Source: Marinilabiliales bacterium (GTDB lineage Bacteria > Bacteroidota > Bacteroidia > Bacteroidales > Prolixibacteraceae). From it: a DNA stretch of 47,764 nucleotides. The notes below the pieces were generated by a model. The model ran no database searches. It saw only the letters and a list, made by a program, of their open reading frames with translations, and was not told the DNA's origin. The stretch lies in the NCBI GenBank assembly GCA_021286825.1, contig JAJTBP010000003.1:1-47764 (forward strand). Reading direction: 5' to 3'. The position numbers were made by a program, and so were the translations under genes. Shown here piece after piece: positions 25,001 to 43,063 of this stretch. Position 1 is the stretch's first letter. Each line of letters starts with the position of its first letter.

Positions 25001-25471
25001 CTGCAGGGAGTAGGTAAGCGCGACATCTGGGGTGATGGCTTCCTCGTTATCCCGGGTTTCAACTCATCAGACGGTGCCATGCCTGAAGCCATTGCCGGAA
25101 ACTTCTGGAGGGCAGACCGCACCAATGCATTCTATCCCGCACCATACAACCAGGCCGGTAGCGGTACCACCCTGAACATGCAGGTTCAGTCACGCTATCT
25201 GTTGAACATGGCCTATCTGCGCATCAAGAACATTACCGTAGGATACACAGTGCCTGCCAACATCTCCAAGAGATTCCATGTCAGCAAGGCCAGAATATAC
25301 CTTGCATTGGAGAACTTCTTCACTTTCGATCACCTGGGAACACTGCCGGTTGATCCGGAGGAAATTGATGGATATTCCATGTGGAATACCTCCAACTACA
25401 ACGCTAGTCGTACCGGAACAAGCGTTCCTACCTACAAGAGTTCCTCTCTCGGTATTCAGTTGAACTTCTAA
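22082..25471 (+). CDS. SusC/RagA-family TonB-dependent outer-membrane transporter
   Basis: The protein has 1129 residues, normal for SusC proteins. It has a signal peptide to about residue 20 (MQLAMA-type end before QKRT), a CarboxypepD_reg beta-sandwich at about 25-105 (VSGVVRDKASNETLPGVSV, SYIGMKQMEV), the SusC motif IDEVVVVGYGQQKK before the plug (about 110-230), then a 22-strand barrel ending in Phe (SSLGIQLNF). There is no STN domain, so it should not signal through a FecR partner. It imports oligomers captured by the SusD lipoprotein, using TonB energy. The pair stands next to the peptidoglycan-salvage genes, so muropeptides or glycans are likely cargo; that is inference. Confidence 0.95.
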   Translation: MKKAVALLFILCMIVQLAMAQKRTVSGVVRDKASNETLPGVSVLEKGTKNGITTNMDGKFELSVSPGATLVISYIGMKQMEVKVGTSSTINVALESSNEQIDEVVVVGYGQQKKANLTGAVASVDTKVLEARPIPDVGRGLQGTTPGLSVVIPSGEVGSDPIMKIRGQLGSFQGGSSPLILMDNVEIPSIQMVNPDDIESISVLKDAASASIYGAKGAFGVILIVTKKGAKTESVNVSYSGNVSFQNMSKKMEMARLDALEYSVLAFERVGGTVAGAFYQITREGYEKAKVWQDKYGSTIGPNDPMVYGRDWYVDANGRKIGIRTYDPYDYMIKEWTPTQTHNFSINGKSGNTDYNISLGYLGQSGMIKPAKKDDFQRYNASVRLGTQINDWIKVNAGMMYSKRLKRYAYATSSTTADPWLYLYRWGPNMPMGTEDGDPLRSPASEVAQANTANQETNYASMNGGFTMNPTKYWKINFDYTHANQEYINLRPGTRYTARDTWSAAVAKNDASGNRIYVNDAGEVVASTATGAMPAYQLVNSTYTAVGANPDHVYRYSKNDQWNTINLNTTYDLTLEDVHKFKFMLGMNRVAYKYDYNWSQTTQLVDYSNPQFDLATGVQTTSGGSYWESQLGFFGRLNYDFKDKYLLEANLRYDGSSKFPSNLQWRYFPSFSAGWRVSEESWMKWSKNYINAFKLRGSWGSIGDQTVAGSMYVPTMAGSFNNFLISGSKLYQFGTPGAVSANITWQDIATLDFGTDIRFLKGDMGITFDWYRRDTKNMIVPEEGIPVTFGTGAPQSNYGSLKTNGVEVQVDYNHRFKSGVGINVTAAFSDAKTVITKYGSTQSIDSWYVGKTYGEIWGYETDRLYQKEDFVYDAAGKFVNFTTKDGFVVNQLSDPLAATQGKFQSGNFKFGPGDVKFKDLNGDGVITPGNRLLKDANGNPDYGDLKVIGNSTPRYQYSLRLGADYKGFDASVFLQGVGKRDIWGDGFLVIPGFNSSDGAMPEAIAGNFWRADRTNAFYPAPYNQAGSGTTLNMQVQSRYLLNMAYLRIKNITVGYTVPANISKRFHVSKARIYLALENFFTFDHLGTLPVDPEEIDGYSMWNTSNYNASRTGTSVPTYKSSSLGIQLNF

Positions 25472-25480
25472 AAACAAGTC

Positions 25481-27313
25481 ATGATGAAAAAATATTTTCT
25501 GATACTCATCGCCGTTGTTACACTCGGAATTGCCGGTTGTAGCGACTTTCTGGACAGACCGTCGCTGACTACCATGAATGACGGCAACTACTGGACCTCT
25601 GAAAACAACCTGCGCCTTTTTGCCAATGGATTTTATACCAACTACTTCGTTGGGTACAACTCCAGTTTCACAGAGGATTATGCTTACCTGCGTGGTTACT
25701 ATTTCTCCGATGACCTCGCTTCCTCAGGCAAACAGAGTGGTTTCGAAACACAGGCTCCTGCCTCCCGTGCCTCTACCAGTGAAGCGGCTTCCTGGTTGCA
25801 GACCTATTCCGGTCCCACCTGGGATTTTGCCTGGGTTCGCAAATCCAATCTCTTCCTGGAGAGAATCGAGTCTATGAAGACGGGCAACATCATTTCTGCT
25901 TCCGTTTATCAGCATTGGAGCGCCGTTGCCAAATTCTTCAGGGGTTATGAATACAGCCGTCTGGTCAGTGTTTTTGGAAATGTTCCTTACTATGACAGGG
26001 TCATCGCCGACTCGGAACTGGATCTCTTGTACAAGGACCGTGATGACAGAACCATGGTGATGGACAAGGTTTATGACGACTTCGTCTATGTTTTGGACAA
26101 CATGCGCCTCTCCGACGGAGATGCCCAGTACCTGAACCGTTACAGCGCTGCCGCCCTGATTTCCCGCCTCATGCTGTTCGAAGGAACCTGGCAGAAATAT
26201 CAGTTGAACAACAACGCCAAGGCTCAGAAATACCTGGATCTGGCAGTGAAAGCCGCCAACATCGTGATGGCTTCCGGCAAATTCTCTTTCACCAGTGATT
26301 TCCGCTCCCTGTTCGGATCTGAAAGCTTGACCAGCAACAAGGAGGTCATCCTCTACAGAACCTATGATGCCGCCATCGGTATCACCCACTCTGTCGCTTC
26401 CTATTCCAACGGATATGAATCCCAAAGCCAGGCTCCCAATCTGAAATTGGCCAAGGCATTCATCTGTCAGGATGGTAAGCCCTACAAACTCTCTACCCTG
26501 CCCAATGCAGCCAATCTGGACATCAAGAACATGGTAGCTACCCGTGACCCACGTTTCGAGGCTACCTTCTGGAATGCTCCGAAGAAAGAGTCTTCTACCT
26601 TGCTGTATGCTTGCAAATTCATCGACCGTGTAGGGGTGACTTACTATCCCGGCCCTTATCCGGCCATCTACGGTTCCAGCACCAATCCCAACGATGCCCC
26701 GATCATTCGTCTGGCAGAAGTGGTCCTGAACTGGATTGAGGCAAAGGCTGAGTTGGCAACCATGGGTGGCGCAGCCGTCACACAGGCCGACATCGATGCA
26801 TCCATCAACGCCATCCGCAACCGTCCGTTGGATGCAACGGCTACCGCAAAGGGCATCAAGAAAACGGCTCCCCTTACCCTCGCCAGTTTGCCGGATGATC
26901 CCGACCGTGACTCTGACGTTCCCGCCCTCCTTTGGGAGATTCGTCGTGAGCGCAGGATGGAATTTGTTTTCGAACACACCCGTCTGCTGGATCTGAAACG
27001 CTGGAAGAAGATCAATTACATGGCCAATACGGATCCCGACAACATGCTCGGTCTCTGGATCAATTTCCAGACAGAGTTCCCGGAATTCCTCGTTGCTGCC
27101 AAAGTAAACAAACTGAAAGTAAGGAAAGCCGACGGAACGGTCGTAACCTATACGGGCACGAATGGCGCCGACATGGTGGGTTACTACGTACCTGAAAACA
27201 TCACCAACAGGGATGCCTTCACAGACAGGGTTTATCTGGCTCCGGTCGGCAATACCCAGATCAGTGAATACCTTGGAAAAGGTTACAAACTTTCCCAAAC
27301 ACCGGGCTGGTAA
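25481..27313 (+). CDS. SusD/RagB-family surface lipoprotein
   Basis: The 610-residue protein is translated nine bases after susC. It has a lipoprotein signal with Cys20 in LGIAGCSDFLDR; the following SDFLDR also fits the surface-export signal of Bacteroidota lipoproteins. The SusD fold is seen in the N-terminal helices (TSENNLRLFANGFY), the central RGYEYSRLVSVFGNVPYY, and the C-terminal LWEIRRERRMEFVFE plus LLDLKRWK blocks. SusD forms the lid over the SusC barrel and binds the ligand at the surface. A strong terminator follows 14 bases after the stop. Confidence 0.95.
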   Translation: MMKKYFLILIAVVTLGIAGCSDFLDRPSLTTMNDGNYWTSENNLRLFANGFYTNYFVGYNSSFTEDYAYLRGYYFSDDLASSGKQSGFETQAPASRASTSEAASWLQTYSGPTWDFAWVRKSNLFLERIESMKTGNIISASVYQHWSAVAKFFRGYEYSRLVSVFGNVPYYDRVIADSELDLLYKDRDDRTMVMDKVYDDFVYVLDNMRLSDGDAQYLNRYSAAALISRLMLFEGTWQKYQLNNNAKAQKYLDLAVKAANIVMASGKFSFTSDFRSLFGSESLTSNKEVILYRTYDAAIGITHSVASYSNGYESQSQAPNLKLAKAFICQDGKPYKLSTLPNAANLDIKNMVATRDPRFEATFWNAPKKESSTLLYACKFIDRVGVTYYPGPYPAIYGSSTNPNDAPIIRLAEVVLNWIEAKAELATMGGAAVTQADIDASINAIRNRPLDATATAKGIKKTAPLTLASLPDDPDRDSDVPALLWEIRRERRMEFVFEHTRLLDLKRWKKINYMANTDPDNMLGLWINFQTEFPEFLVAAKVNKLKVRKADGTVVTYTGTNGADMVGYYVPENITNRDAFTDRVYLAPVGNTQISEYLGKGYKLSQTPGW

Positions 27314-27379: not shown

Positions 27380-28516
27380 TCATCCGATGGAGCGGATGCC
27401 GATGCCTGGCAGGTCACTGAGGACGATCTTGCCCTCCACAATCTTCATTCCTTCATACAGGTCGTTGGATATAAGCAGGTTGCCATCCAGGTCGGCCCAA
27501 TCAACGATGGGCGACAGTTGAGCGGCTGCACTCGTTCCGCAGCTGGTCTCGGTCATGCATCCCATGAGTGTTTTCATGTTGAGGCTTCGGGCGGTTTCCA
27601 GTATCTTGTGTGCCTCACGCATCCCGGTGCACTTCATCAGCTTGCAGTTGATGCCGGAATAGACCCCCTGCAGTTTTTTCAGGTCACCAACCCGTTGCAT
27701 CGCTTCATCCGCCAGGATGGGCAGCGGACTGTGCTGGGTCAGCCAGGCCGTATCTTCCAGGTTGTGCTTGTCGAAGGGTTGTTCGATGAAAACAATCCCC
27801 TGTTCCTTCAACCAGTGCACCTTGTCGAGCGCTTCCTGTCGCTCTTTCCATCCCTGGTTGACATCCACACAGAGTGGAATCTGGGTCACCGAACGAACGC
27901 TGTTGATCATTTCTTCGTCGTTTCCACCTCCGATCTTGACCTTCAGAATTTTGAAGGCAGAGGCCTCCTTCGTCTTGGCCACTACCTCCGGACCCTTGTC
28001 GATGCCAATGGTGAAGGTGGAGAGGGGTGTATTTTCCTTCGAATAACCCCAAATGCGGTGCCAGGGTTGGTTGAGCAATTTTCCTACCAGATCGTGCAGG
28101 GCAATGTCGACCGAGGCCTTGGCTGCACAGTTGCCCGGCATAATCTGGTCGACATAATCGAGGATCTCTTCCATCCGGAAAGGATCCCTGAATTGATCCA
28201 GTTTCAAGGCGGAGAGAAATTTCTGGGCTGTTTCATGGGACTCTCCAAGGTAGGGGGGCATCGATCCTTCCCCATAACCGATCACCCCTTCCCACTCAAG
28301 TTGGGTCAACACCACGGCAGTCGTTTTCCTCGAATTGGAGGCAATGGTGAAGGTGTGGCGCAACTGCAGGTCGTATGGTTTCCATGTGAGCTTTAGTCCC
28401 TTGCCCGATGCGCGATAGGCCGGCATTTTCCCGGGTTCGCAATCGAAGGAGGTCAGCAGGGCGCCACCGGCCATCAGGGCCGAGGCTCCCAGAAAAGATC
28501 TTCTGTTTGTTTCCAT
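27380..28516 (-). CDS. Dipeptide epimerase (L-Ala-D/L-Glu type), Tat-exported
   Basis: A 378-residue enolase-superfamily enzyme of the muconate-lactonising subgroup. Catalytic Lys192-x-Lys194 (KVKIGG), metal ligands Asp218 (CVDVNQGW), Glu245 (FIEQPF) and Asp270 (LADEA), and the second-face lysine Lys292 (or Lys295) are present. The DxD pair Asp342/Asp344 (DLDGN) matches the motif that binds the dipeptide ammonium group in L-Ala-D/L-Glu epimerases. Known homologues turn L-Ala-D-Glu from peptidoglycan into L-Ala-L-Glu for peptidases. The N-terminus has a twin-arginine signal, NRRSFLGASALMAGGALL, so it is probably exported folded. It is the last gene of the island, 39 bases after the D,L-endopeptidase that should make its substrate. 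Confidence 0.9.
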   Translation of the reverse strand: METNRRSFLGASALMAGGALLTSFDCEPGKMPAYRASGKGLKLTWKPYDLQLRHTFTIASNSRKTTAVVLTQLEWEGVIGYGEGSMPPYLGESHETAQKFLSALKLDQFRDPFRMEEILDYVDQIMPGNCAAKASVDIALHDLVGKLLNQPWHRIWGYSKENTPLSTFTIGIDKGPEVVAKTKEASAFKILKVKIGGGNDEEMINSVRSVTQIPLCVDVNQGWKERQEALDKVHWLKEQGIVFIEQPFDKHNLEDTAWLTQHSPLPILADEAMQRVGDLKKLQGVYSGINCKLMKCTGMREAHKILETARSLNMKTLMGCMTETSCGTSAAAQLSPIVDWADLDGNLLISNDLYEGMKIVEGKIVLSDLPGIGIRSIG

Positions 28517-28555: not shown

Positions 28556-29731
28556 TTAATACCAGGGATGATCTTTCACCCGAACAATACCGGGGTTCCC
28601 TTCTTGACCCAGAATGGTTCTGCCTCCGAGCCAGTTGGCTGCCCGGATGGCGGAATAGCCCTTCTTCGCCGGATCAAAATTGTCGATCCTGACATAACCG
28701 GATGAATTGATGTAGGCGCCTTCACCCAGGTACAAACCCACATGGGTCGCCCTGGCAGAATGGGTTGCATCGGCTTTCCTGCCAAAAAAGACCAGGTCAC
28801 CGGGTTTGAGTTTCTGGTATCCTTCCGAGGGATCGGTGAAGCGTCCGTGTCTGAACTGCAGCGAGGCATCTCTTGCCAGGATGATGCCGTTCAGGAAATA
28901 GACGGTCTTGACGAATCCACTGCAATCCACCCCTTTGCTGGAGGTACCACCCCAGAGATAAGGACGCCCTTTGAGTGAAAGCGCGACCTGTTCAAGGGAT
29001 TGTGGCAATTGGAAAGCAGTTGTTTTCCAGCTGTCAAAATCGAGTACCTCATGCGTAGGCAGGCTGACGATCCTTCCATCGGGCAGTTGGGCGGTGGTGG
29101 TTCCTCCTTTTTCGGAGACCCATTGCATCAGGTCACCTGCCACCAGGTCGGTGGCGGCTGTCTGGCTTTCCGGATCCATGGCCGTCCCGGCAAGGGGAAG
29201 ATAGATGACCCGTTTCGAAGTTCTCCAGGCCGCGGCGGCCGCACTGTCCTGCAGGACGATGGCATCGTCATCGACCCAACCGATGTAGCGGTCGGGCGTT
29301 TGGATCATCAACCAGCTGCCGGAGTGTTTCAGTACTTTAACGGGCGTTCCGAGCAGCGATTGTGAAACCATCTCCGAGGAGTGACCTGGACCGGACCGCA
29401 TGTTGCAAACGCTGACGGTGACCAATCCCATGGTTTTCTCTCCTTTGCCCTGCTCAGGCAGCAGGCGGATGCTGTCGAGTGTTTTGATGCCTGCTTGTTG
29501 CAGATGGTCCAGCAGTGAGGCCTTGGCCTTGTCGCTTGTCGTCTCTCCTTTGGCTACCAAGGTACCCTCCTGTGGATAGAAGTGGACCTGGTAGAGCTCT
29601 TCGCGTGTGTCGGGTGCATGCTGGACAGCCGTCTGCTTTGAAATCTCTTCGGCCTTCTTCGTTTCCGTGTTCTGCTGGACGCAGGAAAAGAGAAGGGCAG
29701 CTAAGGTGATGGGTAAAAATATCTTTTTCAT
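28556..29731 (-). CDS. NlpC/P60 gamma-D-glutamyl endopeptidase lipoprotein with SH3 domains
   Basis: The 391-residue protein cuts the D-Glu-diaminopimelate bond of stem peptides, giving L-Ala-D-Glu. The lipoprotein signal ends at Cys17 (LLFSC). Bacterial SH3-like domains fill about 100-235 (SVCNMRSGPGHSSEMV, YIGWVDDDAIVL). The NlpC/P60 domain (about 245-365) has Cys270 in GVDCSGF and His330 in THVGLYLGE. The third catalytic position is Asn342 (YINSSG), where YkfC-type enzymes such as the Bacillus one have His. PYLWGGTSSKGVD matches the site that reads a free N-terminal L-Ala. The epimerase gene follows at 39 bases; a 131-base gap separates it from the NagZ fusion. Confidence 0.92.
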   Translation of the reverse strand: MKKIFLPITLAALLFSCVQQNTETKKAEEISKQTAVQHAPDTREELYQVHFYPQEGTLVAKGETTSDKAKASLLDHLQQAGIKTLDSIRLLPEQGKGEKTMGLVTVSVCNMRSGPGHSSEMVSQSLLGTPVKVLKHSGSWLMIQTPDRYIGWVDDDAIVLQDSAAAAAWRTSKRVIYLPLAGTAMDPESQTAATDLVAGDLMQWVSEKGGTTTAQLPDGRIVSLPTHEVLDFDSWKTTAFQLPQSLEQVALSLKGRPYLWGGTSSKGVDCSGFVKTVYFLNGIILARDASLQFRHGRFTDPSEGYQKLKPGDLVFFGRKADATHSARATHVGLYLGEGAYINSSGYVRIDNFDPAKKGYSAIRAANWLGGRTILGQEGNPGIVRVKDHPWY

Positions 29732-29862: not shown

Positions 29863-32800
29863 TCAGCGGACCTCCTTTTTTGGCATGTTTTGGTAAATCG
29901 ATTTCAGTATTTCTGTTCTTACGTTCATTTCGCCGATTTTGTTGTTGTCGCGGGTTGGATAAACCCTGTTCGACAGGAAGATGTAGACCAAACCGCAGGC
30001 AGGATCGATCCAGACGAAGGTGCCTGTGTACCCGGAATGGCCAAAGCTTTCGGGCGAAACAGCACGAATCGGATAGGCCTCTTTCTCACCCATCGCGTCG
30101 TTGTTGAGCAGGGGTTTGTCGAAACCCAAACCCCGACGGTTGCCGGTCTTTGGGAACTGTGGTCTGGTGAACTCGCGGAGGGTCGACTCCTTCAGGTATT
30201 GGTGACCTCCATAGGTGCCCATTCGCCGGTACATCTCGTAGATCTTGGCCAGGTCGTTGGCACTGCCGAAGAGTCCGGCATTGCCTGAAAGTCCGCCCAA
30301 CACGGCCGATGACTCATCGTGGACGGTTCCCAGAAGCTGCTGTTGCCGATAGTAATGGTCCTTTTCCGTGGGGATGATCTCCTCCTCGCTGAACCGCTCC
30401 AAGGGTAGAAAGGTGACGCGATCGGCACCAAGGGGTTTGTAGAAAGATTCATCCAGCAGTTCGCGGAATTTTCTTCCGGAGATGGCTTCGGTGATGGCGG
30501 GTGTCATGACAAAGGGAAGGTCGCTGTAGACGTATTTGCCACGGGTCTTGAGGTGCGATTTCCGGATGGTCTTGTAAACCGTCTGCGGGAAATCGTTTCT
30601 CAGCCATAATCCTTTGGCTGCCTGGAGTCCGAAATTGGGCTCCTGCTGAAACCTGTACCATTTTGTGCTCAACACCCCCTTCTCCATCGATTTCTTCCAG
30701 AAAGGGAGGAAGGGGGGCAATCCCGATTGGTGGGAGAGCAGTTCCCGGATGGTCACATCCTTAAGTTCTGTCTTGTTGAAAAGCCGGTTTTTCCAATAGG
30801 GGAAATAATCCGAGACAAAGGCGTCGGGTTGGATTTTCCCTTCATCAAACAGCTTCATCCAGACCGGAGTGCCGGCCGTAATTTTGGTCATCGATGCGAG
30901 GTCGTACAGGTCGTCCCTGCTCTCGGCTACCTTCCGGTCGAAGGTGTGAAAACCGTAGGCTTTGTGGAAGATGACCTTTCCATCCTTGGCGACCAGCACG
31001 TTGCAGCCGGGGAAAGCCTTTGCCGCAAGAGCCTCCTGGACAATCGAATCGATTTGACCGTTCAGCGCATCTGAGGAGATGCCCGATTCTTCGGGCAGTG
31101 TGTATTTTAGGCGGATCGCCGGGATGGTCGTCAGTCCATCACCCCAATGGTAGTGACCGGGGAGGGATACCGGCAGTTTACCTGTGGCGGAGATGCCACC
31201 AAAGATCAATTGGGCAGCAAGTTGCTGATTGAGTGAGTCGTTTTGATAAGCCAGGATCAATCCGGTGGGCAACTTGGGGCTCTTCCATTCCATGAGACTG
31301 TAAGGACTTCCGAAAACCACCATGACTGCCTCCTTTTTGGCTGCGAGGAAGTTGAAGAGGGAGTCCAGCCCGGCATTCATTCCGTAGGGTCGTTCGGGTT
31401 TGCCCGATTGTTTGTATCCTGCCTGCATCGATCTGCGCCCCTTGTTTTCGTAAAGGGCATGCAAACCGGCGATGACCAGGTCGTATGACATCAGTTTTTT
31501 CTCGACGACCCGTCTTTCCTGATCGCTGAAATGGTCGGGCAACTGATATGGGTCGATCCGGCAATAGTTGCCCAGCATTTTTTGGAATGGGGTCATCGTC
31601 TCGCTGCCCACCGAGAGGGAGGCGATGCGGATTTTATCCAGGTTTCTGACCGGAAGCAAGGAATCCCTGTTCTCCAATACCGTCAGGGCTTTTTCGGTGA
31701 TCTTCCGTTTGATCAGTTCCGTATTTGGCTTGTTCAGTTCCCGCAACAGGTTCTCTTCCTGTATTTTGACAGGGTGATCAAGTCCGCACCAGTATTTTGC
31801 CGCCAGTACTTTTCTGCATTTTCTCTCCAGGTCGGCAACCGGGAGCTCCTTTTTTTGAACGGCAAGGAGGATCTCCTGATAGGCCAGCACGGGATCGGCC
31901 GGAAATTCTACCACGTCGTTTCCGGCTTTGAGGGCAGCCACTTCCAGCTTTCCTGGAGGCAGGAACCCCATGGCTCCCTCCATGTTGGTGGCATCGGTAA
32001 TGACCAGTCCTTTGTAATGCCAATTGCCGAAAAGGATCTCACCGACGATTTTCGGTGAGAGGCTGGATGGTTCTCCAGGGGTCGCGTCGAGTGCCGGGAG
32101 GTTCAGATGGCCGGTCATGATGCAGCCAATGCCGGCGTTGGCCAGTTCGCGGAAGGGAACCATCTCGAGGGTATCCAGTCGCTCTCTGGTAAACGGGAGT
32201 GTTGGCAGCGCCAAATGCGAGTCGGTTCGGGTGTCACCGTGGCCTGGGAAGTGTTTGGCGGTAGCCAGGATGCCATTTTGCTGTAACCCGGCAGCCATGA
32301 CGACAGAATAGCGGGTAACTGCTTTGGCCGATTCCCCAAAGGAACGCATGCCGATCACCGGATTCAGCGGTTCCGTGTTGATGTCGCAGCAAGGGCCGAG
32401 TGACAGGTTGACCCCGATGCGCCTCATCTGCCGGGCCATCTCCGACGCGGCTTGCCTGACGAGGGAGGTGTCTCCTGCAGCGCCCATCGCCATGTTGTAA
32501 GGCATGGAGAGCACGGAGGAGAGTCGCATGCCAATGCCCCATTCGGCATCCATGGCCACGATGGGTTGAATTTTGGAGAGGGAACGGTAGAGGTTGGTCA
32601 GTCGAGTCTGCGTGACGGGATCTCCCTCAAAAAAGATGATCCCTCCGAACCCATAATCCCGGACCAGTTGCGCATCCCGCAACTGTTTCTGTAAGTTGTT
32701 GCCTGCGGTGACATCGATCCAGATCAGTTGTGCGACCCGTTGTTCGGTGGTCATTGATTGATAAACGGAGTCTACCCACGGATGGTGCGACAGTTTTTCC

Positions 32801-32868
32801 AGATCGACTTGGCTCATTCCAGGCAGGCCGATGCATACAAACAGGAGCAGGATCAGGAATTTTCTCAT
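29863..32868 (-). CDS. nagZ: NagZ-type beta-N-acetylglucosaminidase fused to a serine beta-lactamase-fold hydrolase
   Basis: A 1001-residue exported fusion. The signal peptide ends near residue 19 (PGMSQ). The GH3 catalytic domain (about 25-365) has AKHFPGHGDTRTDSHLALP, with the Asp216/His218 dyad specific to NagZ, and nucleophile Asp292 in VITDATNMEGA. A GH3 C-terminal alpha/beta domain covers about 385-575. From about 595 to 995 is a class C beta-lactamase/PBP-like domain with S659-M-T-K662, Y781-S-D and H944-S-G. NagZ removes GlcNAc from GlcNAc-MurNAc-peptides; the second domain could act as a MurNAc-peptide amidase or esterase. I chose the ATG at 32868; a start 14 codons earlier hides the signal. 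It lies 19 bases after ampG. Confidence 0.92.
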   Translation of the reverse strand: MRKFLILLLFVCIGLPGMSQVDLEKLSHHPWVDSVYQSMTTEQRVAQLIWIDVTAGNNLQKQLRDAQLVRDYGFGGIIFFEGDPVTQTRLTNLYRSLSKIQPIVAMDAEWGIGMRLSSVLSMPYNMAMGAAGDTSLVRQAASEMARQMRRIGVNLSLGPCCDINTEPLNPVIGMRSFGESAKAVTRYSVVMAAGLQQNGILATAKHFPGHGDTRTDSHLALPTLPFTRERLDTLEMVPFRELANAGIGCIMTGHLNLPALDATPGEPSSLSPKIVGEILFGNWHYKGLVITDATNMEGAMGFLPPGKLEVAALKAGNDVVEFPADPVLAYQEILLAVQKKELPVADLERKCRKVLAAKYWCGLDHPVKIQEENLLRELNKPNTELIKRKITEKALTVLENRDSLLPVRNLDKIRIASLSVGSETMTPFQKMLGNYCRIDPYQLPDHFSDQERRVVEKKLMSYDLVIAGLHALYENKGRRSMQAGYKQSGKPERPYGMNAGLDSLFNFLAAKKEAVMVVFGSPYSLMEWKSPKLPTGLILAYQNDSLNQQLAAQLIFGGISATGKLPVSLPGHYHWGDGLTTIPAIRLKYTLPEESGISSDALNGQIDSIVQEALAAKAFPGCNVLVAKDGKVIFHKAYGFHTFDRKVAESRDDLYDLASMTKITAGTPVWMKLFDEGKIQPDAFVSDYFPYWKNRLFNKTELKDVTIRELLSHQSGLPPFLPFWKKSMEKGVLSTKWYRFQQEPNFGLQAAKGLWLRNDFPQTVYKTIRKSHLKTRGKYVYSDLPFVMTPAITEAISGRKFRELLDESFYKPLGADRVTFLPLERFSEEEIIPTEKDHYYRQQQLLGTVHDESSAVLGGLSGNAGLFGSANDLAKIYEMYRRMGTYGGHQYLKESTLREFTRPQFPKTGNRRGLGFDKPLLNNDAMGEKEAYPIRAVSPESFGHSGYTGTFVWIDPACGLVYIFLSNRVYPTRDNNKIGEMNVRTEILKSIYQNMPKKEVR

Positions 32869-32887: not shown

Positions 32888-34744
32888 TCAGTTTTTAACC
32901 TTTTTGCCAAATTCGGGTTTTACATTCAGGAAGAGGACCGGAATGACACCGGGAATCATGCAGAGCATTACCCAGACGAAGAAATATTTGTATCCGATGA
33001 TCTCCTGCAGCCAGCCGGAGAACATCCCGGGAATCATCATGCTGAGGGCCATGAAGCCTGTTGCGATGGCAAAATGGGCTGTTTTGTTCTCCCCTTCCGA
33101 GATGTAAATCATGTAGAGCATGTAGGCGGTGAAGCCAAATCCATAACTGAATTGTTCGATGGCGGCGCACAGGCTGATGATGAAGTAGCTGGTGGGCTGG
33201 GCATAGGCCAGATAGACATAGGCCAGATGCGGGAGGTTGATGGCCAATACCATCCACCACAGCCAATAGCGAAATCCTTTGCGCGAAGCAGCCAATCCGC
33301 CGAGGATGCCTCCCAGTGTCAGGGCAAGGATGCCGATGGTTCCGTAGATGAGGCCGACTTCACCGGTGGTCAGTCCCAATCCTCCCAGTTGTCTGGAATC
33401 CAGCATGAAAGGTGAGGCCATCTTGATGAGCTGTGCCTCGCCGAAGCGGTAAAAGAGGAGGAAAGAGAGGATCACCCAGATCTCCTTCCGTCTGAAGAAG
33501 GAGGTGAACGACTTGAAAAAGGCTGCCATCATTTTGTCGTCGCTCTTCAGGACTTTCTGATCGGAAGCCGGGAAGGGAAGGATCAGCTTGTGGTAGAAGG
33601 AGAAGAGGACAAAGAGGGCTGCCAGCAGGAAGAAGGTGAGACTCCAGGCCAGATGGATGTTCCCGGAGATACCGCTGAAGGAGGCCTCCGAGGCGGTCTG
33701 AAGCTTGGGATCGACCTGGAAGAGGAGGTAGGCAGGCATCTGCCAGTTGGTGCTGTTGAAAGCCAGCCGTTCTCCTTCCAGTAGTTTCAGGCTGTTGTCA
33801 CCATCCTTGAATTTGATATTCAGAATCATCTCCTTGCCCTCCTCCGGCTTGGAATTGAGCCGAACGGCAACAGCGGTGACGTTGCCCGTCAGCTGTTCAC
33901 CGGAAAGGGGGGTCTCCTCTTTGGTGAAATGTCTTTGCAGAAATCGTTTCAACGGATCGGATACCAGGTCGCTCCACAGGGAACGCTCTTCAGGCGTACC
34001 GGTAGCATGGGCTGCACCCGTACGTCCGGTGAATCCGTATTGAAGGTTGTGGTTGATCACCACTTTTCGCAGGGAATCCATCTGCCGGACGGGAATGTTT
34101 TGGGTGGAGACCCCTGCATGGGATGGAAAGGCAACGAAGCAGGTGGCATTGGCCGATGTAGCCGGAATGGCATTGCTTTCAGGGAGATTCAGTTGGAGGG
34201 TCTGCGATGGGTTGGCTGCTACCTTCACCTCGAGAGGAGGCAATCCGGTGGCCGTCTCAAAGTACCCGGCCAGAATGATCAGCAAGCCTTGGCCGGTGAT
34301 CATCGCGATGCGGTAAAAAGTGCTTCGGATGCCGACAAAATAGGCTTGCTGGTGTTCGTTGAGACCAAGCATGTAAAAGCCGTCGGCCGAGATGTCATGG
34401 GTTGCCGAGCTGAAGGCCAGCAACCAGAGAAAGATGAGGGTGACCTTGAAAAACCCGGGCAAGGGAATGGCCAGCGCAACGCCGCCCAGTCCAGCCCCGA
34501 TGATCAGCTGCATGATGACGATCCACCAACGTTTGGTTCTGAATAGATCGACCACCGGACTCCAGAGCGGCTTGATGACCCAGGGTAGATAGAGCCAACT
34601 GGTGTAGAGGGCAATGTCGGTATTGGAGATGCCCAATCGTTTGAACATGATGACAGCCACCGTCATGGCCACCACATAGGGAATGCCTTCTGCAAAATAG
34701 AGGGTTGGGATCCATGCCCAGGGATTGCGGTATTCTTTTTTCAC
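32888..34744 (-). CDS. ampG: AmpG-family muropeptide permease with a large extramembrane insert
   Basis: A major-facilitator inner-membrane transporter of 618 residues; E. coli AmpG has 491. It starts with the AmpG-like NPWAWIPTLYFAEGIPYVV, followed by WLYLPWVIKPLWSPVVD and FSSATHDISADGF. Five membrane segments lie in residues 12-162 and the remaining ones in 365-610. Between them, about residues 165-362, is a soluble stretch of some 200 residues rich in predicted beta strands; by the even/odd rule it faces the periplasm. AmpG proteins import anhydro-muropeptides by proton symport. The start is a GTG at 34744. A matching -7 box precedes it, so it may head its own message with the NagZ fusion, endopeptidase and epimerase. 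Confidence 0.88.
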   Translation of the reverse strand: MKKEYRNPWAWIPTLYFAEGIPYVVAMTVAVIMFKRLGISNTDIALYTSWLYLPWVIKPLWSPVVDLFRTKRWWIVIMQLIIGAGLGGVALAIPLPGFFKVTLIFLWLLAFSSATHDISADGFYMLGLNEHQQAYFVGIRSTFYRIAMITGQGLLIILAGYFETATGLPPLEVKVAANPSQTLQLNLPESNAIPATSANATCFVAFPSHAGVSTQNIPVRQMDSLRKVVINHNLQYGFTGRTGAAHATGTPEERSLWSDLVSDPLKRFLQRHFTKEETPLSGEQLTGNVTAVAVRLNSKPEEGKEMILNIKFKDGDNSLKLLEGERLAFNSTNWQMPAYLLFQVDPKLQTASEASFSGISGNIHLAWSLTFFLLAALFVLFSFYHKLILPFPASDQKVLKSDDKMMAAFFKSFTSFFRRKEIWVILSFLLFYRFGEAQLIKMASPFMLDSRQLGGLGLTTGEVGLIYGTIGILALTLGGILGGLAASRKGFRYWLWWMVLAINLPHLAYVYLAYAQPTSYFIISLCAAIEQFSYGFGFTAYMLYMIYISEGENKTAHFAIATGFMALSMMIPGMFSGWLQEIIGYKYFFVWVMLCMIPGVIPVLFLNVKPEFGKKVKN

Positions 34745-34893: not shown

Positions 34894-34919
34894 GAGAAAA
34901 GCAGTTAGTATCTTTTCTC
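34894..34919 (-). terminator. Hairpin spanning the SpoIID stop codon (possible attenuator)
   Basis: The arms GAGAAAAG (34894-34901) and CTTTTCTC (34912-34919) are perfect complements around a ten-base loop containing the TAA stop. On the - strand the stem is followed by TGTATCTTT, a poor T run, so partial termination or an RNA-processing site fits better than a full stop. Confidence 0.35.
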
Positions 34920-36227
34920 CAGAACGGCTCCGACAAAATAATGACGAAGGATCGCATCGAAGGGATAGCCCTTATCTCCCATCACGGCAGCACCGATCTG
35001 GCACAGGCCCACTCCATGGCCCCATCCGGCTCCGGTGAGCAGGAAGGATGCCGGAATTGGGCCGTCCCCCATTTTGTCCACCACAAAGGCCGAGCTATAG
35101 AGATGCGAATGGGAGAGTATCTTTCGAATCTGCAACTCCTTGCCGATGATTTTGGTCAGCTTGGAACCCACCACTTTCAGCCGCAGGATGCGGCCCGATT
35201 CTCCCCGCTCCACGGGAATCAGATCCAGGATCTCCCCGAAATCAAATCCGCTCTTGGTTCGGATGAGAGAGGCAATTTCTGCTTGGGTGTAACTTATTTT
35301 CCATCGGTAGAAATCGGTCGTCTCCTGGTCGTAGTCATTCAGCACCTGCGACAATACCCGCTTGTCGGTGGTGTTGCAGAATGCCGGAGGGGAAGACCGG
35401 ATGAAACGGTCGGCCTCCTGCTCATCGGTCAAGGATCCGGGTCGCTCACCGCTTGCCACATCGTGCACAGGCTGCAAGTAGGGGTGGACGACGGGTTCCC
35501 AGGCATTTTCAAAGGTCTCGCTGATGCCGCCGCAACTCTTCGAGAAACGGGCATCACACACTTCGCCATCGTAGGTAAGGAGGAGTCCCGAAGTCTCACG
35601 GATTGCCTGTTCCACAAGCGGACTGGTCTGCCGGGTGATGCCCTGATAGCGCTGGCAATGGTCATCGGCACAAACATCGAAATGGTGGTGATCTTCCCGG
35701 TCGTACCAGCGGATGTAGGACCCTTCGGTCTCAAAAATGGTTTGGTATGCATCTGCCGACTGGCCCAGCCGGCTGCCCTTGATGACCTGGGCGATCAGCC
35801 AGGAGCGGGAGATCACCGCATGGGCCTTCAACAATTCCATGCTGCTGGTCGCACTCATTTCGGAAGAGATGACGCTGATGAGGTAATCTTCGAGTGGCAG
35901 GATGTTGATGGCCTGCACTTTGCCCTCTTCTGCCCTCAATTGCAGAGCCCCTCTGAAGCGCTGCGATTCTTTGCGCTCCCAGTGAAATTCGACCCCGATG
36001 GTCACATCATGCAGGTGAAAGGAAGAGACACTTGGATCTACTGGCTCGAATAGAATGGTATCTTTCCCGGTCTCCTTGCCATTGATCAGGATATGGCCTT
36101 CACGGATGGTGGCATTCATCATCTCCTGGTCAGGCAAACCGGCGGGTTGGGATTGGAAGGTACCATCCAGCGAAAAGTAGACGACCGCTTCCGCCATGAT
36201 TCCGACTTTAATATGGGGTTGTTCCAT
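34905..36227 (-). CDS. SpoIID/LytB-domain protein, apparently cytoplasmic
   Basis: A 440-residue protein with the SpoIID/LytB fold. SpoIID of Bacillus is a lytic transglycosylase that cuts MurNAc-GlcNAc bonds in denuded glycan. The catalytic-type glutamate is Glu123 in ISSEMSATSSMELLKAHAVISRSW; His/Cys residues 186-191 (CADDHCQRYQG) match the zinc-binding loop. The C-terminal GAGWGHGVGLCQIGA, with GY later, completes the family pattern. Unlike Bacillus SpoIID or LytB there is no signal peptide or membrane segment: it begins MEQPHIKVGIMAEAV, and no in-frame start lies upstream. So it may act on imported fragments. It starts five bases after the DUF4922 gene. Confidence 0.88.
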   Translation of the reverse strand: MEQPHIKVGIMAEAVVYFSLDGTFQSQPAGLPDQEMMNATIREGHILINGKETGKDTILFEPVDPSVSSFHLHDVTIGVEFHWERKESQRFRGALQLRAEEGKVQAINILPLEDYLISVISSEMSATSSMELLKAHAVISRSWLIAQVIKGSRLGQSADAYQTIFETEGSYIRWYDREDHHHFDVCADDHCQRYQGITRQTSPLVEQAIRETSGLLLTYDGEVCDARFSKSCGGISETFENAWEPVVHPYLQPVHDVASGERPGSLTDEQEADRFIRSSPPAFCNTTDKRVLSQVLNDYDQETTDFYRWKISYTQAEIASLIRTKSGFDFGEILDLIPVERGESGRILRLKVVGSKLTKIIGKELQIRKILSHSHLYSSAFVVDKMGDGPIPASFLLTGAGWGHGVGLCQIGAAVMGDKGYPFDAILRHYFVGAVLEKRY

Positions 36228-36232
36228 TGCTT

Positions 36233-37219
36233 CTATTTTTTGGCACCATCATTTCTGATGGCTTGTTTCAAATGTTCCATTTTATCTTCTTCCAGTCCGA
36301 TCTGATCGAAAATGTCGAGAATATCGGCTGACGTAATCTTTTCGAAGTCCTCCCTGCGCGGTGTGATGAATACACCTCCCAGATCCACCGAAGCCGGACT
36401 GATGAGCAGTTGTGCTTCTCCTTCGGCAAAATAGTAGGAAGGTCTGTGGAGTTTTCTGGGAAAGAGGTGAAGGATCCACTTGCCGGCCGACCAGGAGCAG
36501 AGCAGGTTGATCATCGGTTCTGCTTTTTCGGGCTGCATACTTCCCAGTGTCTCCAAGATGCGTTTCATGAAGCAGACACCGCTCTCAGCATCCGATGTCT
36601 CCAGAGAGATCATCTTCCGGAGGTAGGTGTCAAAAGCCCAGATTTTTGTCGTGGCCGATTCCATCAACAGGGCCCCATCCTCCCATTTTAATCTTTCGAA
36701 CGCTGTATCCACCGGCATAAATCCTTTTTCACCAGCTTGAAAATGGAGATGATCGGGGGCCGAGGCACCGCATTCCGGTCCGTTGTAAAAGAGGGTATAA
36801 CCTTCCATCTCCCTGGCGAGGGAAAGGAGGGTGGCTAGGTTGGCCAGAATCCTTTGATCCGTATGCCGGAGGCTTGTAATGGTAAAATGGTGGCGGAAGA
36901 TGGGATAGGGGTTGACCAAAATCAGAAACTCCCCTCCGGTTTCGAGTTCCAGCTGCTCTGGAGGCCTGTTTTCCCGGCAAAGGAAACATTTTCGGGCTGC
37001 GATCGAACCAGCATCCACCTTCGCAGCAGAAGAACGGATCCGTTCCGGATTGAATTGGACCTTGAGCGTCCATCCCCCGATGGAAAAGCTTTTCTCCTCC
37101 ACCTTTGCCAAGCCACGGTAATTGCTGGCAGACAGTGGCCAACTCTGGTTTTGTTGCTCCAAAAAATGAGCAAACCGGTCTTCGATTTCCATTCCTCTCT
37201 GCTTGTCTGTTTCGTTCAT
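36233..37219 (-). CDS. DUF4922 protein with GalT/HIT-type nucleotidyltransferase motifs
   Basis: A 328-residue soluble protein. I recognise it as DUF4922, which has no assigned reaction as far as I know. Its motifs resemble the GalT/GDP-galactose phosphorylase branch of the HIT superfamily: Cys78-x-x-Cys81 (ARKCFLCRENRP), NPYPIFRHHFTI at 103-114, and APDHLHFQAG with His157-x-His159-x-Gln161, like the HPHGQ of GalT whose second His carries the nucleotide. This suggests transfer of NMP or phosphorolysis of a nucleotide sugar. I chose the ATG at 37219, after an A-rich leader; an ATG at 37270 is an alternative. Codons upstream of that run into the glycosyltransferase gene and are not real. Confidence 0.8.
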   Translation of the reverse strand: MNETDKQRGMEIEDRFAHFLEQQNQSWPLSASNYRGLAKVEEKSFSIGGWTLKVQFNPERIRSSAAKVDAGSIAARKCFLCRENRPPEQLELETGGEFLILVNPYPIFRHHFTITSLRHTDQRILANLATLLSLAREMEGYTLFYNGPECGASAPDHLHFQAGEKGFMPVDTAFERLKWEDGALLMESATTKIWAFDTYLRKMISLETSDAESGVCFMKRILETLGSMQPEKAEPMINLLCSWSAGKWILHLFPRKLHRPSYYFAEGEAQLLISPASVDLGGVFITPRREDFEKITSADILDIFDQIGLEEDKMEHLKQAIRNDGAKK

Positions 37220-37281
37220 TTCCACTTTTTTGCCGGTTGCCCGGATCGCCGGATCAGCCTTCGCATGCATCCGATGAATTG

Positions 37282-38809: not shown

Positions 38810-41800
38810 TCACTTCAACAATTCAAGCAACTGTTTCATCAATCTCTCCCTTTCTTCATTTGTTGCAATGGTCTCAATCGGCGTGCAGAGGGAGACAACC
38901 TTGTACCTGCCCTCATAGAAGGTACCGGCACTCTTGTTGTCACCTGCATAACGGAAGAGAACGGAGGCATTCTTGCCTGCTGGTTCAATGGCATCGGGTG
39001 CTTCGACTTTGTAAAGGGTAGGATGCCATGTGTGGATGTAATGGTAGTCTTGGCTGGTCGATTGACGCCAGTTGTTGACGGTGTAGATCTCACCAGATTT
39101 GGAGGCATGGCTTGACCGCAAGGTGTAATGGAGCACCTTGGCGGCAAATTTGGCTGCCAGCGTGTCGCCGCATAGGGCGAGGTCGCTGCCGATGTAGGCA
39201 CCGGATATCAACAGCCGGGTGCCCTCTTTCTCTGAGAGATCGGTCAGTTTTTTCTGCATCGCCGGGGTAAACAGGGTGAAATCCTTGCCGGGGATACCGA
39301 TGAGGCGTGTAGTGGTCTTCTCCTCCCCGAAGATCAGATCGTACAGGCAATAGTGGTCGTTGGCGGAAGGCAGTTCTTCGAATGACTCATCACTCATGGA
39401 TACGAACCCTTTCCCGTTTTTCAACAGGGCGGCGCCATGGACCACCGCATAATCGAACAGGTTGCCTGGAATGATGCGGCTTTCCATGTCAGCATCACTT
39501 GCGCCGAAACCCGGTGCATCATCATCCAGCCACTCGGATTTCCGGTTGAAGTCGTATTGGTTTCCGATGAAGGCGAGGTTTTGTTGGTAGGCCACCCCCT
39601 CATCTTCTTCCATCTTGAAACCGGCCTCTTTGCCGTTGTCAAAAGCTGCCGGGGCACAAATCCTGTCGAAGCCATTGACTATCAAGGCCGGATCCGATCC
39701 GTCCACGGGAAGGGCACAGGCCAGTATCTCGGAAGGAAAACTCTCGCCCCCGGCATTCAGTGCGGTCACCTTGAAGCTGTAGATCACCCCGGGTTCCAGG
39801 TCGGTGAGTGTCATCACAGGCTTCTCGGCGGGATGGCCGTTGTCGAATCCGCCATTCCCCTTCCGGATGTAGACCCGGTAGGCGGTTGGTTCGGCGGTTG
39901 GTTCGAGCGGATCGCTTACAGGCTTCCAACTCAGTCTGAGTGATTTCCCGTCGAGCGACATGGCAAAATGGTCGACCGGCAACGGCTCCACGATGGCCGG
40001 GAATCCGTTCTGCCCGGCAACAAATTTCAGGATCCCTTTGTAGAATGCCCTGCATACATCAAACTTGAAGCGGGGATCCTGCGCGAGGTACATATCGGCA
40101 AAGTTTTGGTGCGAGAGCAATTCTGAAAGAAGGGCCGGGACTTTTGGCCGTGCAGCCTCGAAGTATCGTTTGTTCCACATGCCCCGACGGGTCCAGTCGG
40201 CTTTGTAGCGGGCCCTCAGGTCTTGCACCACCTGGGTCTGCACCAGGTCGGCCAGATCCCGGCTGGCCCATTTGGACTGACCGTTCGGGAAAGTATCACG
40301 GTCAAAGGTGGTGTCATAGATCACCAGCGATCCGATGATGGAGCTATCTGGAGTGGTGCCTGCATCCGTGTGGAAGGCCATGGAGAGGTCGACCGGAATG
40401 CCCATCCCCTTGGCATGGGGAGCCTTGGTCGGACCGTTGGGATCACCCATCAGAAAATTGACATATTCCCCACGACCCATGTAGTCGTCTTTGTAATCTT
40501 CCTTGCCATTTTCCCTGTTGGCATAAAGTGCGGCATCCGATCCCCTGTTGGCATAGTCTATTTTGGTTTTGTTGAGGCTGTAGACCAGTGAATCCGGAAA
40601 TCCTGCGTATTGAAGGAAATACCGTGCGGCTTCCTGATAGCGCGGACGCTGACTGGCAAAACTCCGCCAGATGACTGAGTCGGTTTTGAATCCTTCCTGT
40701 TCCCTTATGCTGTAAAGTTTCTTCAGCTGTTCATCGTTTCCCCTCACGATGTTTCCCATTCCCCCTCCAAAACGGACCGCATCCGCGGATAGCCACTTTC
40801 CAGATTGGGACGAACCATTGGACAAGACAACGGATCCGGTTTCCGGGTGCTGACCTGACTGAAAATGGAAAGTGCCCAGATAGATCCAGGTCCCTCCACC
40901 TTTGGTCTGATCGACGGAAAAAGAGGTCTGACCCCCAGCATGAAAAACGGTATACCGTGCATCACTGCAGTTGTCCTCACTTTGATGGTAGGAGACATAG
41001 ACGGCATAGTCACCCTCTGCAGGGAAAGAAGGGAGGTATTTTACCGAGGCGTCGGCAACCGGTTTGACGGAGATCTTCCGGCTATGGCCCATGCCAAAGG
41101 GGTTTTCACCGTCAAACAGGAAAGGGAACCGGTATCCAAAACCTGCGTCGGGGGCCGTTTGCCATGCTGCCCCTTGTTCCAAACATTGGGAGCCGGCAGA
41201 TGAACCATCGGCATCCACAATCACCTCGTGCGACTGGATATCTCGCTCTCTGGGCATCCAGACTGTAGCGCCTGCATTTTCCAGCATGGGTGTGAGGTAG
41301 GGGACTACGAAGCTCATCGTCCAGAGATCTTCCACCGTCAGGAAGACACGGGCCCGCTGCCACTCCCACCGGTCGAGGGTATTCTCATAATACCAGCCGT
41401 GGCTTTGCCAAAGGGTGATGTGTCGGTTTTCCAGACCATTTTTGAAATGTAGATCCTTGGAGAGGTTCGCAACAAAAGGTTTAGTGGCAGGCAATGGGTG
41501 AATGAGCCTTTTCTGATCGATCGGTAGGGAGGCCTCCCGCAGGACATTGGGAATCAACTGATGAATCTCCTTTCCCATGGAAAAAATGGAGAGATCAAAT
41601 TTGCGGAAGGGTCTGCCCAAAGCCTTGCGGTAGTCCGTATAATACTTCTCTACGGATGCCGTACGGAAAGGGATCTCAGCAAAGGCTGCGTTCATCTCCA
41701 GACTCAGCTTGTGCCTGGCGAAATCGATCTTGAGGGTATCCGCCCGAAATCCAAATCGTTTGCTCTCCGGTATGGCATGGATGAATCCTTTGGTAGCTTC

Positions 41801-41938
41801 TTTGGCCTTCCGGTACCTGCGCTCCGTCTTGTTGGCCCAAAGGGAGTGGGACAGCAGGATCAGTGCCAAAGTGATCCCTAGCTTGGCAGGCAAGCCGGAT
41901 TGAAATGACCGATGGGTTTTATGGCGAAATGTTTCCAT
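38810..41938 (-). CDS. Exported zinc amidase (Amidase_3-like) with golvesin/xanthan-lyase-type insert and FN3 domain
   Basis: A 1042-residue protein, often annotated as xanthan lyase in Bacteroidota. The signal peptide core lies at 20-34 (ITLALILLSHSLWA). The N-acetylmuramoyl-L-alanine amidase site is spread over the sequence: His180 (WQSHGWYYE), Glu203 (TVEDLWT), His523 (SMAFHTDAG) and Glu606 (LLSELLSH). Between the first and second halves sits a golvesin C-terminal-like beta domain (about 300-395, DYAVYVSYHQSEDN, GTWIYLGTFHF). A fibronectin type III domain follows at about 655-750. The last 290 residues are unassigned. It should release stem peptides from glycan in the periplasm or outside. 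The lyase name is misleading. Confidence 0.82.
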   Translation of the reverse strand: METFRHKTHRSFQSGLPAKLGITLALILLSHSLWANKTERRYRKAKEATKGFIHAIPESKRFGFRADTLKIDFARHKLSLEMNAAFAEIPFRTASVEKYYTDYRKALGRPFRKFDLSIFSMGKEIHQLIPNVLREASLPIDQKRLIHPLPATKPFVANLSKDLHFKNGLENRHITLWQSHGWYYENTLDRWEWQRARVFLTVEDLWTMSFVVPYLTPMLENAGATVWMPRERDIQSHEVIVDADGSSAGSQCLEQGAAWQTAPDAGFGYRFPFLFDGENPFGMGHSRKISVKPVADASVKYLPSFPAEGDYAVYVSYHQSEDNCSDARYTVFHAGGQTSFSVDQTKGGGTWIYLGTFHFQSGQHPETGSVVLSNGSSQSGKWLSADAVRFGGGMGNIVRGNDEQLKKLYSIREQEGFKTDSVIWRSFASQRPRYQEAARYFLQYAGFPDSLVYSLNKTKIDYANRGSDAALYANRENGKEDYKDDYMGRGEYVNFLMGDPNGPTKAPHAKGMGIPVDLSMAFHTDAGTTPDSSIIGSLVIYDTTFDRDTFPNGQSKWASRDLADLVQTQVVQDLRARYKADWTRRGMWNKRYFEAARPKVPALLSELLSHQNFADMYLAQDPRFKFDVCRAFYKGILKFVAGQNGFPAIVEPLPVDHFAMSLDGKSLRLSWKPVSDPLEPTAEPTAYRVYIRKGNGGFDNGHPAEKPVMTLTDLEPGVIYSFKVTALNAGGESFPSEILACALPVDGSDPALIVNGFDRICAPAAFDNGKEAGFKMEEDEGVAYQQNLAFIGNQYDFNRKSEWLDDDAPGFGASDADMESRIIPGNLFDYAVVHGAALLKNGKGFVSMSDESFEELPSANDHYCLYDLIFGEEKTTTRLIGIPGKDFTLFTPAMQKKLTDLSEKEGTRLLISGAYIGSDLALCGDTLAAKFAAKVLHYTLRSSHASKSGEIYTVNNWRQSTSQDYHYIHTWHPTLYKVEAPDAIEPAGKNASVLFRYAGDNKSAGTFYEGRYKVVSLCTPIETIATNEERERLMKQLLELLK

Positions 41939-43062: not shown

Positions 43063-43063
43063 G

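Follow-up and report, generated by a model that had tools for sequence, protein, structure and literature searches.

A predicted exported NagZ–AmiE-type fusion protein in a muropeptide salvage gene cluster of a Marinilabiliales bacterium

In Bacillus subtilis, NagZ and AmiE act in sequence (PMC6403190) and are encoded by two separate adjacent genes together with murQ, murR and murP (PMC5061867), and both AmiE in B. subtilis and YfeW in Escherichia coli lie in murQ operons (PMC5061867; statements drawn from cited papers, here and below, refer to the portions of their text that were available). A different layout is found in RmNag3 of Rhodothermus marinus (Rmar_0925), a beta-N-acetylglucosaminidase whose architecture was published in 2020 and which its authors, pointing to similar proteins in Salinibacter and Rhodohalobacter, describe as the only characterised one (PMC6987092). 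For Tannerella forsythia, a member of Bacteroidia, strong periplasmic amidase activity has been inferred by the authors who studied its salvage of N-acetylmuramic acid (MurNAc) (PMC7670621). Here we describe a gene in contig JAJTBP010000003.1 of a Marinilabiliales bacterium, analysed over its entire length of 47764 bases (the window), which encodes a NagZ-like half and an AmiE-family half in one polypeptide, and whose product is likely to be an exported bifunctional muropeptide hydrolase, acting as NagZ and then as an AmiE-type amidase.

The assignment of the C-terminal domain carries most of this proposal. For comparison, AmiE sequences were gathered by searching genome contigs, using part of B. 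subtilis NagZ as query, and reading the gene directly upstream; with the best 80 of 452 relatives kept, nearly all from Bacillota, an AmiE-like open reading frame stood on the same strand at most 250 nt upstream of nagZ at 60 loci, while the gene was absent at 17 and the flank missing at 3. YfeW, AmpH and AmpC were taken from E. coli MG1655, along with seven PF00144 matches from Bacillus spizizenii. A phmmer search with residues 591-1001 of the fusion scored a paralogue in its own genome at 400.8 bits, YfeW at 132.0 bits and B. spizizenii AmiE at 109.0 bits (28% identity over 397 amino acids), followed by matches of 35.8, 26.4 (own genome, contig C83), 24.2 (AmpH), 21.4 and 18.7 bits. Four of the seven B. 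spizizenii proteins, AmiE among them, matched the domain at all; the matches to YfeW and AmiE covered it completely, and the other E. coli and B. spizizenii PF00144 proteins tested reached at most 35.8 bits.

Phylogenetic placement gave the same picture. In a quick tree of 56 rows, the fusions, AmiE and YfeW split from six other proteins with a Shimodaira-Hasegawa-like approximate likelihood ratio test (SH-aLRT) value of 91. A more careful tree of 57 rows retained 12 of the quick tree's 29 fusion C-domains and added 14 Bacteroidota PF00144 proteins drawn from matches to the window's protein in relatives, both trees using 16 of the 60 nagZ-adjacent AmiE genes. It separated AmiE, YfeW, the fusions and stand-alone Bacteroidota copies from 20 other PF00144 rows with support of 100/97, several of those outside rows being flagged as long branches. 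Clustering with D,D-carboxypeptidases or esterases, the outcome that the original prediction had named as contrary to it, was not seen against these outside rows, which comprised AmpH, AmpC and 18 other PF00144 proteins, with EstB absent from the tree. YfeW (PBP4B; L034:8103-9407) grouped with the short-type Bacillus AmiE (100/100; B. spizizenii amiE, L037:4417-5739), and short AmiE and YfeW together formed the sister group of the Bacteroidota clade (96/79), while the long AmiE-like proteins of Bacillota fell outside; AmiE is therefore not a separate clade, and the window's domain lies inside the family. Many of the Bacillota AmiE-like proteins encoded next to nagZ were 545-609 amino acids long (for example L050:3732-5417) and carried an extra C-terminal part that is absent from the short B. 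subtilis-group type.

Sequence motifs and curated models were consistent with this placement. The tetrapeptide VHDE did not vary across the 10 rows of an alignment of the window's protein, AmiE, YfeW and Bacteroidota copies; in a larger alignment of the window's protein with fusions and paralogues, VHD was present in 43 of 44 rows, in comparison with none of the 20 outside PF00144 rows, and both SxTK and H-x-G-x-T-G were found in 44/44. Two alignments (A1 and A5) were dropped since their AmiE rows were 10-17% identical to the window's protein versus approximately 28% elsewhere, a sign of misplacement. The top curated NCBIfam model of the fusion was NF002968, 'penicillin binding protein PBP4B', at 146.9 bits against a cut-off of 385; AmiE (764.5 bits) and YfeW (890.4 bits) likewise score best on it, both above the cut-off. 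Because AmiE itself passes this model, the 'PBP4B' label is no argument against an amidase; in Bhargavaea, a long AmiE-like protein encoded next to nagZ also misses the cut-off (207.5 bits). Neither the AmpH model (30.6 bits of 266) nor the class C beta-lactamase model (24.6 bits of 415) was passed by the fusion. On sequence grounds, the domain is a member of the wider AmiE clade, although not an equivalog by NF002968, and the original prediction's view that it is of the AmiE kind is borne out by the scores to YfeW and AmiE, the shared clade and the best model held in common with AmiE.

Turning to the N-terminal half, the Asp-His dyad was located at D216/H218 in KHFPGHGDTRTDSH and the nucleophile at D292, which align with D232/H234/D318 of B. 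subtilis NagZ (3bmx; positions counted in the alignment). A full-length model built from alignment A6 (27 sequences; predicted local distance difference test score (pLDDT) 74.6, predicted template modelling score (pTM) 0.62) had as its top Foldseek match 4gyj, the D318N variant of B. subtilis NagZ with GlcNAc-MurNAc (GlcNAc, N-acetylglucosamine), with an E-value of 1.2e-36, and the best PDB sequence matches of this half were 6k5j and 4zm6, then 3bmx. The NagZ equivalog PRK05337 was not passed (131.3 bits versus a cut-off of 207); this model has 340 positions, a one-domain length, and the two-domain proteins 6k5j and 3bmx are among the nearer PDB relatives, for which reasons we call this half NagZ-like, after the two-domain type found in B. 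subtilis.

Pfam placed Glyco_hydro_3 (PF00933) at residues 40-356 (E 4.6e-65), a weak Glyco_hydro_3_C (PF01915) at 449-571 (E 1.1e-4; 22.6 bits versus a cut-off of 31) and Beta-lactamase (PF00144) at 606-975 (E 1.5e-45), in which the serine hydrolase motifs are intact as S659-M-T-K662 (SxxK), Y781-S-D (YSD) and H944-S-G (HSG). The open reading frame, Pfam matches and alignment thus agree with the coordinates, the NagZ dyad and the SxxK, YSD and HSG motifs that had been read earlier, to which the strand (minus) is now added. Export, also part of the original prediction, is still predicted: the protein begins with a signal-like hydrophobic stretch (Kyte-Doolittle mean of 3.32 over 12 residues from residue 4), and similar N-termini were found in all seven congeners. 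Features of the fusion and its neighbours are listed in the table.

Table. Positions in the window of the fusion gene, its segments and neighbouring genes of the same strand.
Feature	Position	Strand	Details
NagZ-AmiE fusion protein	29863..32868	minus	1001 aa; ATG 32868, stop 29863
Signal-like N-terminal segment	32809..32868	minus	about residues 1-20, MRKFLILLLFVCIGLPGMSQ; end point is an approximate reading
GH3 N-terminal barrel, NagZ type	31801..32751	minus	PF00933; D216/H218 dyad, D292 nucleophile
GH3 C-terminal domain (domain 2)	31156..31524	minus	PF01915, below cut-off
AmiE-family serine hydrolase domain	29944..31053	minus	PF00144; S659/K662, Y781, VHDE 849-852, H944-S-G
AmpG-family muropeptide permease	32888..34744	minus	TIGR00901 172 bits (under the cut-off of 350); 19-nt gap between its end and the fusion
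YkfC-like NlpC/P60 endopeptidase with SH3_16, probable lipoprotein	28556..29731	minus	PF00877 E 8e-21
L-Ala-D/L-Glu-type dipeptide epimerase (predicted type), Tat-like N-terminus (NRRSFLG)	27380..28516	minus	PDB 3iji E 8.6e-143
SpoIID/LytB-domain protein	34905..36227	minus	TIGR02669 167 bits, cut-off 83
Golvesin/fn3/Amidase_3 protein	38810..41938	minus	Amidase_3 match weak, 23.1 bits vs cut-off 27

The proposed function is built on the observed domains, intact motifs, family membership and gene context; both activities, their location and the fate of the products we infer, taking the order of the two cuts from B. subtilis NagZ and AmiE. The NagZ half would take the non-reducing GlcNAc off GlcNAc-MurNAc-peptides, after which the AmiE half would cut the MurNAc-L-Ala bond, so that GlcNAc, MurNAc and a free stem peptide would result in the periplasm. 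The YkfC-like lipoprotein would then trim this peptide down to L-Ala-D-Glu, which the epimerase with the Tat-like N-terminus would convert to L-Ala-L-Glu, while MurNAc, after uptake and phosphorylation, would be opened by MurQ. YkfC enzymes require a free N-terminal L-Ala, and a ykfB-ykfC pairing is known in Bacteroides thetaiotaomicron (PMC2954226). Any benefit of the fusion, such as channelling, is a guess.

On the minus strand, AmpG is followed after 19 nt by the fusion, after a further 131 nt by the NlpC/P60 gene and after 39 nt by the epimerase. AmpG, the fusion and NlpC were found together in all seven congeners, and the epimerase in all five whose contig extends to it. The PDB relatives of the NlpC/P60 protein are 3npf/3pvq, 'dipeptidyl-peptidase VI' (E 1.9e-56), and a cysteine follows its hydrophobic stretch in 7/7 congeners, while the NRR motif is present in the epimerase of the window and in its homologues from 5/5 congeners. 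The Tat-like N-terminus suggests that the epimerase is exported and, given this feature together with the lipoprotein-like cysteine of the NlpC protein, peptide processing is probably periplasmic. In the Golvesin/fn3/Amidase_3 protein (38810-41938), no GHGG motif was found. The same gene run (36233-38748 and 41944-44602) includes a DUF4922 protein, a glycosyltransferase, a NagX-like membrane acetyltransferase and a GHL10 protein, and a SusC/SusD-type pair on the plus strand (22082-27313) faces the salvage genes. A PADLOC search for anti-phage defence gave no match.

At its far end, the window stops with a GH9 and polysaccharide-deacetylase gene (46132-47718), just beyond which a kinase-like gene and MurQ lie in a congener. 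In that relative (L214:5580-10034), MurQ scores 355.7 bits on PRK05441 (cut-off 168) and stands beside a gene of 281 amino acids with weak similarity to NagK kinases, and in all three congeners searched MurQ lies on the contig of the fusion, 17-18 kb upstream of it. MurQ and AnmK were not found in the window's own genome, a single assembly that is 94.8% complete; because three congeners have MurQ at a place that here falls past the contig end, its absence is probably not real, and by comparison with them the salvage cluster very probably continues into MurQ. A search for AmgK-type kinases in the own genome returned two PF01636 matches.

Beyond the genus, a single alignment through both domains was obtained in at least 41 of 197 other Bacteroidota genomes searched (a phylum-wide draw, counted by rows), which shows that the architecture is not a chance joining. 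Among the matches listed for a further 45 genomes, the alignment of a long frame began at residue 2-36 and ended at 718-731; in each of the 12 of these that were read, the C-domain matched on both sides of the gap, with VHDE and H-x-G-x-T-G present and the pattern AS.TK missed in one (L181). From these full alignments and long frames, we conclude that the fusion occurs widely in Bacteroidota. NagZ alone was present in three other genomes read. The paralogue in the window's own genome (contig C108) has the GH3_C and AmiE domains without the GH3 barrel and is divergently oriented from NamZ (locus L174:3786-7083), and two congeners (L175, L176) also have a truncated copy beside NamZ. By comparison, six of eight same-family relatives of other genera (8 of 11 such genomes were read for gene context) have a full fusion divergent beside NamZ, and it is among these full fusions that the three truncated copies nest, with support of 100 for the three and 93 for the wider group. 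The simplest reading of this nesting is that the NamZ-adjacent copy lost its NagZ barrel, while the full fusion was kept in the AmpG cluster.

We weighed three other readings of the C-terminal domain. A PBP4B-like D,D-carboxypeptidase or endopeptidase of low molecular mass, which would trim the stem peptide while the NagZ half removes GlcNAc, would suit the name of the top curated model (NF002968, 146.9 bits with a cut-off of 385) and the DD-carboxypeptidase activity of pbp4B given in the title of Vega & Ayala 2006, as it stands in the reference list of PMC5061867. Yet the label fails to separate the two functions, as AmiE, described as an amidase, scores 764.5 bits on the same model; classical AmpH and AmpC fall outside the AmiE/YfeW clade, and genes of the AmiE family sit with nagZ, namZ and murQ, which are sugar-side functions (YfeW adjoins murQ-murP in E. 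coli), so that we regard this reading as unlikely. An EstB/EstG-like esterase or acyl hydrolase, with an ester of the wall or some other ester as its substrate, is suggested by a weak model of the domain (pLDDT 63), whose closest solved folds by Z were EstG (28.6), the family VIII esterase 4ivi (26.2) and EstB (1ci8, 22.6), and by PDB sequence matches to 4ivi (48.9 bits) and 1ci8 (48.2 bits), the best being FLP at 64.7 bits. A PDB query with the B. spizizenii AmiE sequence found no AmiE or YfeW structure (best FLP, 73.1 bits), and for this reason the fold ranking cannot separate AmiE from AmpH or EstB, or show the true nearest family; in sequence comparison YfeW and AmiE score at least double 4ivi and 1ci8, and the neighbourhood is one of peptidoglycan salvage, making an esterase very improbable. 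The faintest prospect is that of a non-catalytic module which serves the NagZ half in binding or specificity, after the suggestion of the RmNag3 authors that the beta-lactamase domain could narrow specificity, RmNag3 being active, among p-nitrophenyl (pNP) sugars, on pNP-GlcNAc only (PMC6987092). Against it, SxTK and H-x-G-x-T-G are conserved in every one of the 44 rows, and the C-domain is the half retained when one is lost, as in the genus paralogue without the GH3 barrel and in a distant full-length fusion (L138, 8485-11466) in which the NagZ motifs are degenerate (KHYPHYGL, GYA) and those of the C-domain intact.

Besides the fold ranking and the title of Vega & Ayala 2006, the latter being the chief doubt since PBP4B belongs to the same clade, several observations weigh against a bifunctional NagZ and AmiE-type hydrolase. 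With the NagZ site of L138 dead, the NagZ and amidase activities are not always kept together. Glycosidase assays are the only ones reported, in the text available, for RmNag3, which has the same layout (PMC6987092). Among 18 distant fusions, AmpG was a neighbour of one, the epimerase of three and NlpC of none; gene context as phylum-wide proof of function was rejected owing to this rarity. An exported NagZ would strip the GlcNAc that AmpG needs, because AmpG of T. forsythia imports GlcNAc-MurNAc and GlcNAc-anhydroMurNAc (GlcNAc-anhMurNAc; PMC7670621); either the permease and the fusion deal with different fragments, hydrolytic as opposed to anhydro, or the location is other than we propose. 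Finally, release of the peptide could fall to the cluster's Amidase_3 protein rather than to the fusion.

Among described proteins, RmNag3 is closest to the fusion, sharing GH3 domains 1 and 2, a C-terminal beta-lactamase domain and a signal peptide (PMC6987092), a likeness by description rather than by alignment of RmNag3 itself. Its authors set RmNag3 beside B. subtilis NagZ and AmiE without, in the available text, calling the C-domain AmiE; R. marinus is without AmpG, and the described neighbours of RmNag3 are not wall genes (PMC6987092). In the parts of the literature that our search reached, no NagZ-AmiE fusion was named, and this layout was met only in RmNag3 and its relatives. The fusion layout is thus already known from RmNag3 and common in Bacteroidota, and what the present analysis adds is evidence for the AmiE family identity of the C-domain, together with the gene context. 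Litzinger et al. 2010 or a later review reportedly mentions fused NagZ-AmiE in Bacteroidetes, and for that reason no priority is claimed.

Compared with B. subtilis NagZ (YbbD) and AmiE (YbbE), the NagZ-AmiE-type fusion has the same two expected activities and the same NagZ catalytic residues, in one polypeptide of Bacteroidota instead of two genes. E. coli YfeW (PBP4B) belongs to the clade and curated family of the fusion's C-domain and adjoins murQ-murP, differing in that it stands alone and is recorded as having DD-carboxypeptidase activity (title of Vega & Ayala 2006); by its family membership, YfeW may be an amidase. A broader reading, plausible although we lean slightly against it, is that the whole 'PBP4B' clade forms a single family of periplasmic MurNAc-peptide amidases for MurNAc salvage, that E. 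coli PBP4B is misnamed, and that Bacteroidota fused the amidase to NagZ, the copy beside NamZ in the window's genus having lost its barrel and stayed as a second, separate amidase. In T. forsythia, the ampG-murTKQ genes likewise combine AmpG with MurNAc salvage in a member of Bacteroidia (PMC7670621); the available text of that work does not name the amidase and does not mention a NagZ-AmiE fusion, and the fusion described here is a candidate for the periplasmic amidase left unnamed there.

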